Assembly: GCF_000685315.1 (NCBI RefSeq)
Contig: NZ_ARYM01000009.1
Location: 62,001-126,000 of the forward strand
Source: Hyphomonas polymorpha PS728
GTDB lineage: Bacteria; Pseudomonadota; Alphaproteobacteria; Caulobacterales; Hyphomonadaceae
Reading direction: 5' to 3'
DNA: 64,000 bases
Position numbers and translations under genes: made by a program. The notes beneath the pieces were generated by a model. The model saw only the letters and a program-made list of their open reading frames with translations. It was not told the origin of the DNA and searched no databases. Positions 41,516 to 43,617 of the stretch are shown in pieces (within the stretch, counting starts at the first letter, position 1; every line of letters begins with the position of its first letter).

Positions 41516-41554
41516 AAAAAGAAAGAGCGGAGCGGCTTTGACGCCGCTCCGCTC
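41516..41554 (-). terminator. Intrinsic terminator after the membrane protein gene at 41580
   Basis: GAGCGGAGCGGC (41525-41536) and GCCGCTCCGCTC (41543-41554) make a perfect 12-base-pair stem with a 6-base loop. The minus strand continues TTTCTTTTTCCC. It lies 26 bases past the stop of the gene at 41580 and would end the stress-promoter operon. Confidence 0.88.
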
Positions 41555-41579: not shown

Positions 41580-42440
41580 TCAGGGCGCGCTGATCAGCCG
41601 GTCTTCCAGACCGTCCCGCTCGCGGCCACCGAACACGGCTGCGCCCGCGGCCACAAAGGCGCCGATCATCATCGCCAGCGCGGTGGCAATGGCCAATGTT
41701 GCACTCGCCGCGCGGGCCGCGTCGGCCTCGTCCTTGGCGGCTTCACGGGCTTCGGCGATTTCGGTGAAAGCCAGCTGCACGCGGGCTTCAGCCTCGCTGT
41801 CGCTCATGCCGGTCCACTCGATCACGTCGGCAGTAAGCCAGGCGCGGTCTTCAGCGGTCACGGCTTCTTCGTCTGCAATCGCGCGGATCACCAGACGGCC
41901 AGCCTGCTCGCGGGCCCCGTCCAGCGTGATCGGATTGCCACCAGGGATGCGGTAAAGCCGGTCGGTGATGACATTCGGGGGCGCGAGGGCGTCCTCCTCG
42001 GAGGCAACGGCCGCTGTAGTCACGGCAGCGGCTGCCGCCGATCCACCTGCAGCGGCAACGCCTGCAATGGCAAACATGAACGCGCTTGCCACGGCCCAGG
42101 TGAGAAAGCCGTGTACACTGTCCCGAAAGAAAACCTCATCCCGGTGGATGGCCCAGCGGCGGCGCACGCGGCCGGCGAGATAACCCCCGGCAATCGAAGC
42201 GAAGATCTGGATGAAGATCAGCCAGATGATGGTGACCACGCCGATTGTCGTCAGCGATAGCCCATCATCGGCAAAGGGCGACATGGCGCCAAAGCCAAAG
42301 GCAGAGCCGAGGACAACGAGAACAATCGTCAGCCCAAGCGCGGCAAAGGCGCCGGCAAAGACGGCGGACCAGCTAATCGCCGGGCCTTCCCAGCGCGAAG
42401 GGGACGCGCCCGCAGGCGCGTGAATAGGTGCATCAGTCAT
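41580..42440 (-). CDS. Membrane protein of unknown function (stress-promoter operon)
   Basis: 286 residues: hydrophobic segments near 22-50 (ISWSAVFAGAFAALGLTIVLVVLG), 65-92, 108-140 and 245-270. A soluble insert of about 100 residues (150-245) lies between the third and fourth, rich in Ala and acidic residues. Proteins like this are sometimes labelled PhnA-like in alphaproteobacteria, but nothing ties it to phosphonate use. It follows a 24-residue peptide gene by 13 bases and shares its EcfG-type promoter, suggesting envelope stress or general stress work. Confidence 0.75.
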   Translation of the reverse strand: MTDAPIHAPAGASPSRWEGPAISWSAVFAGAFAALGLTIVLVVLGSAFGFGAMSPFADDGLSLTTIGVVTIIWLIFIQIFASIAGGYLAGRVRRRWAIHRDEVFFRDSVHGFLTWAVASAFMFAIAGVAAAGGSAAAAAVTTAAVASEEDALAPPNVITDRLYRIPGGNPITLDGAREQAGRLVIRAIADEEAVTAEDRAWLTADVIEWTGMSDSEAEARVQLAFTEIAEAREAAKDEADAARAASATLAIATALAMMIGAFVAAGAAVFGGRERDGLEDRLISAP

Positions 42441-42453
42441 GATGAGCGCCTCC

Positions 42454-42528
42454 TTAGAAGATGAGAAGAATGAGAAGGATCAGCGGGATCGGAACCCCGA
42501 GAAACCAGAGTAAAATGCCCTTGCCCAT
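42454..42528 (-). CDS. 24-residue hydrophobic membrane peptide
   Basis: A complete short gene: ATG at 42528, stop at 42454. The product begins MGKGILLWFLGVPIPLI and ends in Leu/Ile/Phe, which would form one transmembrane helix. AGGAGG lies 11 bases upstream. I recall near-identical 'ILLWLLGIPIPI' peptides beside similar membrane genes in other alphaproteobacteria, which argues that it is translated. It is 13 bases from the downstream membrane gene and behind an EcfG-type promoter. Confidence 0.75.
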   Translation of the reverse strand: MGKGILLWFLGVPIPLILLILLIF

Positions 42529-42582
42529 GATGGGTGTTTCCTCCTGTGAATGACCCACGCCCGCCACGTATCGTCGAAGGGT

Positions 42583-42607
42583 AACGCTCCGCTCTCCGTT
42601 AGGTTCC
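42583..42607 (-). promoter_or_regulatory. EcfG-type general stress promoter
   Basis: On the minus strand GGAAC (42607-42603), a 16-base spacer, and CGTT (42586-42583) match the alphaproteobacterial sigma-EcfG consensus GGAAC-N16/17-CGTT exactly. The -10 is 54 bases upstream of the 24-residue peptide ATG at 42528. No EcfG, PhyR or NepR gene is in the window. Confidence 0.75.
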
Positions 42608-42756: not shown

Positions 42757-43617
42757 ATGTCTGCTTCGCTCCTCCCGGTTGTTCTCTGTCTTCTCTCTGC
42801 GCTGACGGTCGCGATCACCAATGTCATGGTGAAGCGCGGCGGCGACGTACTGACCGCGCGGGCCATCGTTGCCATCGTCATGGGGCTCAGCGTCCTGCCG
42901 CTCCTGCCATTTGCGCCGCTGCCGCCGCCGGAAACCTGGCCGCTGATCGCCGTGTCAGTCGTCGTGCACTGGTTCTATCAGTTCTCCGCCATCCGGGCGC
43001 TGCACCGGGGCGCGCTCTCGCTCGTCTTTCCGGTGATGCGCGGGCTCGGGCCCCTGGCCACCGCCGTGCTTGCCGCCATCTGGCTGCGCGAAAGCCTCTC
43101 GCCCATCCAGATTGCGGGCCTGATGGTGGCTTCGCTCTCGATCCTTGTCTTTGCCCTGCCGACGGGCCTGACCGAAGCGGCGCGCCGTCTTGACCGGGCC
43201 GCGCTCTTCTGGGCGCTGATGACCGCGATCGGGGTAGGTCTTTATGCGGTGGCCGATACGCGCGCCGCCCGCGCCATGGAAACGCCGCTGACTTTTGTTG
43301 TCTGGCTGTTCCTGCTCGACTGGATCGGCGTCACGCTGGTCCTCCTCTGGCAGCGGAAGGGCAGGGTGGTCGCCTGCTTGCGCAAGGAGGCGCGCGCGGG
43401 CGCCATCGGCGGCATAGCGGGCTCGCTCTCCTATGGCATGGCGATCTATGCCTACACGCTGACAGACGCCGCCATGGTGACGGCGCTGCGCGAAACATCC
43501 GTGGTCTTCGCCGCCGCGTTTGGCGCCTGGCTGCTGAAGGAGGGTTTTGGCAAACGGCGCATCTTCGCTGCGGCAACGCTCGCTGCCGGGCTTGTGCTGA
43601 TGCAGGCGGCAGGCTGA
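42757..43617 (+). CDS. EamA/DMT-family transporter
   Basis: 286 residues with ten predicted helices in two repeats of five. VKRGGDVLTARAIVAIVMG near residue 20 and GLGPLATAVLAAIWLRESLSPIQIAGL near residue 92 are EamA-type, and the second repeat ends TSVVFAAAFGAWLLKEGFGKRRI. The ATG at 42757 begins directly at the first helix, so the long upstream frame is not coding. Substrate unknown. Confidence 0.85.
   Translation: MSASLLPVVLCLLSALTVAITNVMVKRGGDVLTARAIVAIVMGLSVLPLLPFAPLPPPETWPLIAVSVVVHWFYQFSAIRALHRGALSLVFPVMRGLGPLATAVLAAIWLRESLSPIQIAGLMVASLSILVFALPTGLTEAARRLDRAALFWALMTAIGVGLYAVADTRAARAMETPLTFVVWLFLLDWIGVTLVLLWQRKGRVVACLRKEARAGAIGGIAGSLSYGMAIYAYTLTDAAMVTALRETSVVFAAAFGAWLLKEGFGKRRIFAAATLAAGLVLMQAAG

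Follow-up and report, generated by a model that had tools for sequence, protein, structure and literature searches.

An EcfG-type promoter ahead of a conserved micropeptide-membrane protein gene pair in Hyphomonas polymorpha

Introduction

Most RpoE2-dependent genes of Sinorhizobium meliloti are without a predicted function (PMC3616915). The locus analysed here raises the question of whether two uncharacterised genes, one for a 24-residue peptide and one for a membrane protein, belong to the general stress response of an alphaproteobacterium. It lies in a stretch of 64,000 nt from Hyphomonas polymorpha PS728 (hereafter, the window), where an EcfG-type site precedes both genes. 

Operon layout

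The features of the locus are given in table 1. The promoter site, GGAACCTAACGGAGAGCGGAGCGTT, is the sole exact GGAAC-N16/17-CGTT in the window. Counted back from the ATG of the peptide gene at position 42528, its GGAAC box starts at 79 nt and its CGTT box ends at 55 nt. The 16-nt spacer (16-17 nt for this class) and the distance to the gene (less than about 100 nt) are both those of an EcfG promoter. In Sphingomonas melonis, the EcfG motif is GGAAC-N17-20-GTT and direct targets typically carry it within 100 bp (PMC6599016); the GGAAC-N16-CGTT of Hyphomonas fits this motif, at a distance typical of direct targets. The 286-aa ORF starts 13 nt past the end of the 24-aa ORF and has its own GGAGG. 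Downstream, 10 of the 12 base pairs of the terminator stem are G-C and the stem is followed by TTTCTTTTTC; its folding z-score is -4.55, with an equally good fold in none of 200 shuffles. An earlier note on this DNA had read here an exact consensus match, a suitable distance between promoter and peptide gene, and a strong terminator, and all three readings held. Since dinucleotide shuffles yield a mean of 0.60 matches to GGAAC-N16/17-CGTT per window, the single promoter match is not significant by itself.

Table 1. Features of the peptide-membrane protein operon, in window coordinates.
Feature	Position	Strand	Description
EcfG-type promoter	42583..42607	-	-35 GGAAC 42607-42603, 16-nt spacer, -10 CGTT 42586-42583
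Ribosome-binding site AGGAGG of the peptide gene	42540..42545	-	read from the sequence
Type-A micropeptide gene	42454..42528	-	MGKGILLWFLGVPIPLILLILLIF, 24 aa, one hydrophobic segment; conserved in other Hyphomonas, other Alphaproteobacteria and Beta/Gammaproteobacteria
Polytopic membrane protein gene	41580..42440	-	286 aa, uncharacterised family; some four hydrophobic helices, with residues from about 150 to 240 helical and acidic
Intrinsic terminator	41525..41554	-	12-bp stem and T-rich tail; stem inspection and folding z-score

A 93-aa in-frame reading of the peptide ORF from a TTG (42735-42454) was rejected because its start would fall upstream of the promoter and conservation is confined to its last 24 residues. 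The intergenic region that holds the promoter is shared with a divergent gene (42757-43617, plus strand), an EamA/DMT-type transporter by eye, and no EcfG-type site is oriented towards it.

The peptide and its partner

Judged by its conservation, the 24-aa ORF is a real gene. Close counterparts occur in other genera (e.g. MGRGILLWLLGVPIPVIILLALIWR), codon changes between Hyphomonas species fall mostly at third positions, and the peptide patterns match once in 800 kb of Hyphomonas genome, at this very gene. The peptide has no match over the curated cut-offs of Pfam and NCBIfam. Its letters do not occur in the literature text that we searched, and they are absent from the text of a survey of small membrane proteins (PMC10903887); nor did we find a description of the peptide or the protein gene in the searchable literature. 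Four annotated plasmid records with the peptide beside the protein (Mesorhizobium AR02, Phyllobacterium zundukense, Pantoea At-9b and Bradyrhizobium barranii) list no gene at the position of the peptide, in a gene table that is incomplete. Work on deletions of the larger gene may therefore have overlooked the peptide. With 24 aa and one hydrophobic helix, the latter predicted from composition, it has the format of a small accessory subunit (less than about 50 aa and a single hydrophobic helix).

The 286-aa protein has no relative in Pfam, NCBIfam or the PDB, i.e. no family match over the cut-off and no structure match. A weak match to Pfam COX4 (E 0.01, below the cut-off) and PDB matches with E of 0.4 or worse were rejected. 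The AlphaFold2 model, made with six related sequences, is of low confidence (mean pLDDT 56); it has long helices at residues 24-53, 63-94, 103-151 and 214-271, the helical part at about 150-240 being better predicted. The sequence has GRVRRRW past the second hydrophobic stretch, acidic residues past the third and GGRERD at the end. This charge pattern suggests that both termini are cytoplasmic and that the helical loop is periplasmic.

The operon is also present in five other Hyphomonas genomes, which makes six loci with the source. The membrane protein is 94% identical in Hyphomonas sp. isolate DS1.007. One of the six loci is decaying (L007, G031:C3, ~217700-218400): its membrane protein gene is broken by frameshifts and stops, but the promoter is still there, as is a peptide that has drifted, MGKDSLRWFLGVPIPGIILLLLIF.

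Linkage of peptide and protein across the Proteobacteria

With a profile built on the membrane protein (A1) we searched 385 alphaproteobacterial and 299 phylum-wide genomes, and found relatives in 48 and 55 of them, respectively. In 60 of 66 loci a transmembrane peptide of 22-28 aa is encoded next to the protein (58 found by script, plus L007 and L035, which the regular expression had missed). Such conserved linkage to a polytopic partner is again what a small accessory subunit would present. The gene pair also occurs in Beta- and Gammaproteobacteria, which are bacteria without EcfG, and in this it differs from typical members of the EcfG, sigma-T or RpoE2 regulons.

The order of the two genes bears on the role of the peptide. 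In most Alphaproteobacteria the short ORF is immediately upstream of the protein gene, the place of a leader peptide or of a regulatory uORF that would act on the translation of the membrane protein and not as a functional subunit. However, in 15 of the 17 beta- and gammaproteobacterial loci the peptide gene follows the stop codon of the protein gene by 12-51 nt, a place that rules out a leader function (the remaining two, from gammaproteobacterial MAGs, have it upstream). Moreover, the amino-acid sequence of the peptide is conserved across classes, and in one genome (G152) a type-A peptide with an EcfG-type site of its own stands without the partner next to it. We thus regard a leader as improbable. 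The swap in gene order between classes is unusually clean evidence for a joint function of peptide and protein.

A second 24-aa type (type B), MNGIIYLVGLVVVVMFILSFLGLR and its variants, holds the upstream place in several other alphaproteobacterial families. A search by DNA pattern alone retrieved 14 copies of type B, of which 10 have the protein downstream; an EcfG-type site is found at -49 to -72 in 10 of the 14. Both types are present in G152 (L019, L123), where the site of the lone type-A peptide has the N17 spacing and, elsewhere in the genome, a type-B peptide accompanies the membrane protein with no near site. The exchange of types resembles the interchange of CydX, CydY and CydZ, which substitute for one another beside the same partner family in cytochrome bd oxidase operons (PMC4325964). 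There too, a very short single-helix protein is encoded beside a polytopic partner. We see no sequence relation to those proteins, however, and the partner here is no oxidase; its pairing with the peptide is a linkage of genes.

A small hydrophobic peptide beside a partner gene, with a patchy distribution (7 of 61 relatives) and present on many plasmids, could also belong to a toxin-antitoxin-like module induced in stress, in which the peptide alone would harm the membrane and the partner would restrain it. We find this a little less credible than a leader. Comparison with Rfam matched no antisense-RNA antitoxin in the window, the partner is a large polytopic protein, and the G-x-P-x-P core of the peptide is strongly conserved across classes, unlike in most such toxins. 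Furthermore, in G031 it is the partner that decays while the promoter and the peptide ORF persist.

The promoter in Hyphomonas

All six Hyphomonas loci have GGAAC-N16-CGTT between 78 and 97 nt upstream of the peptide ATG. The nine letters of the boxes are identical across them, amid 40-nt flanks that are 12-50% identical (between non-sister pairs) and spacers that are 25-50% identical. Fixed boxes amid drifted flanks and spacer are, in a comparison of this kind, the pattern of a constrained promoter.

We then turned to 800 kb of the source genome (G000). Genes were called there with a simple finder based on codon usage, which made 85-92% of the sequence coding, and GGAAC-N(k)-CGTT was tallied at every k from 6 to 29. 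Spacing N16 has 20 intergenic sites, 16 of them at most 250 nt upstream of a gene start. Any other spacing has at most three, and at most two within 250 nt of a gene start. This enrichment over all other spacings indicates that a sigma factor with exactly the N16 spacing operates in this genome, and an intergenic GGAAC-N16-CGTT ahead of a gene is very probably a genuine site.

The PhyR-NepR-EcfG module is complete in the Hyphomonas genome, with the PhyR and sigma domains at G000:C8:28088-29880. The locus encodes PhyR (PF22029, PF22233 and Response_reg), NepR, an ECF sigma factor and a HisKA_2 histidine kinase, and two N16 sites precede the NepR-EcfG operon. Other EcfG-type sites are upstream of genes for CsbD, DUF1328, entericidin and DUF883-like proteins, which we take to be typical general-stress genes. 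These are concentrated, together with PhyR, NepR, EcfG and the HisKA_2 kinase, in a dense general-stress island outside the window (L083, G000:C8:24714-33592), which has eight exact motifs in about 9 kb, one of them intragenic.

Some other sites point to further genes of a candidate Hyphomonas stress regulon: an FGE-sulfatase/DinB_2 protein (EgtB-like; G000:C7:111369), a protein of unknown family (C7:115840), an AI-2E family transporter (C7:137646), a CinA protein (C3:177362) and, by eye, a ferric-reductase-like membrane protein (C3:208090). Two exact intergenic sites, G000:C7:115903 (plus strand) and C5:145039 (minus strand), have no called gene close downstream and possibly point to small RNAs or unannotated small ORFs.

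The promoter across the Alphaproteobacteria

GGAAC-N17-GTT is found upstream in 24 of the 49 alphaproteobacterial loci of the membrane-protein family, and any other spacing in 0-4. Allowing for N17/18 raises the count to 28 of 49, against at most five with a permuted first box, and gives 0 of 17 in beta- and gammaproteobacterial loci. One large-genome family (f177, taken to be Rhizobiaceae) has a looser second box, GGAAC-N18-TT. The looser motif, picked after the data had been seen, occurs in 31 of 47 loci, against a mean of 2.6 of 47 for control spacings, the loci being sampled and phylogenetically non-independent.

The association of the motif with NepR across loci is modest. The looser motif is present in 27 of 36 NepR-positive and 4 of 11 NepR-negative loci (Fisher exact test p = 0.03, non-independent loci), and for the strict motif the same test gives p = 0.30 (again, non-independent loci). 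Two of the four NepR-negative exceptions with a motif (G024 and G436) have a PhyR-domain match over the cut-off. Of the type-A loci in Alphaproteobacteria, 11 have no motif nearby, and six of these are in genomes without a NepR match (G361, G365, G288, G230, G135 and G111), none of which has a PhyR match over the cut-off. Nine NepR-positive peptide loci have no near motif (G681, G100, G120, G408, G644, G125, G417, G099 and the type-B locus of G152), so EcfG control of the peptide loci is not universal; in G120 and G100 a motif match lies farther upstream. In G120 (L016/L024, G120:C11), a small ORF that is CsbD-like by eye separates the peptide-protein pair from an EcfG-type motif.

As far as these comparisons of genomes tell, the stress wiring of the module is specific to Alphaproteobacteria. 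A chance match to the motif, with another promoter driving the operon, is highly improbable: the shuffles do give such matches at an appreciable rate, but the boxes are kept in six genomes amid unconserved flanks, the enrichment is specific to one spacing in the Hyphomonas genome and class-wide beyond it, it is absent from beta- and gammaproteobacterial loci, and we looked for a sigma-70-like site near the operon start and found none.

Discussion

The sequences show which class of promoter this is in the genome and that it is conserved; they also show the sigma/anti-sigma module, how the operon is laid out and the phylum-wide linkage of peptide and protein. From these we infer transcription by EcfG, translation, membrane topology and a physical interaction of the pair. 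Under stress, phosphorylated PhyR would bind NepR and release EcfG. RNA polymerase with EcfG would then initiate some 45-50 nt ahead of the micropeptide gene, and the resulting bicistronic mRNA would run to the terminator. The single-helix peptide of 24 aa and the protein of about four helices, whose helical loop is probably periplasmic, would form one inner-membrane complex. We give this joint reading, i.e. EcfG promoter, bicistronic stress mRNA and inner-membrane complex, a probability of about 0.8. The activity of the module may be the protection of the envelope under stress, which is a guess.

Within such a complex the peptide would serve the protein as a small accessory subunit, in the way that CydX, KdpF or AcrZ serve their partners. 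KdpF, which is small and hydrophobic, stabilises or modulates a membrane machine. The same has been described for AcrZ (PMC7267776). Unlike in these two, the partner here belongs to an uncharacterised family and the pairing is known from gene linkage.

The earlier note had proposed that an EcfG-type promoter drives the pair and that this places an uncharacterised peptide and membrane protein in the alphaproteobacterial general stress response. Both proposals gain support from comparative sequence: the first from the boxes kept in six genomes, the PhyR-NepR-EcfG module and the class-wide motif, and the second in that the pair appears to belong to the general stress regulon, as one of its uncharacterised members, and to a broader conserved peptide-protein module. 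We also lean towards the view that this is an undescribed two-part membrane module of Alpha-, Beta- and Gammaproteobacteria, composed of a polytopic protein and a peptide of 22-28 aa that comes in two interchangeable types and on either side of the protein gene, and that was wired into the general stress response in Alphaproteobacteria. A large part of the general stress regulon of Alphaproteobacteria is functionally unexplained, and the pair would offer a small, testable module of it that is present in numerous lineages.
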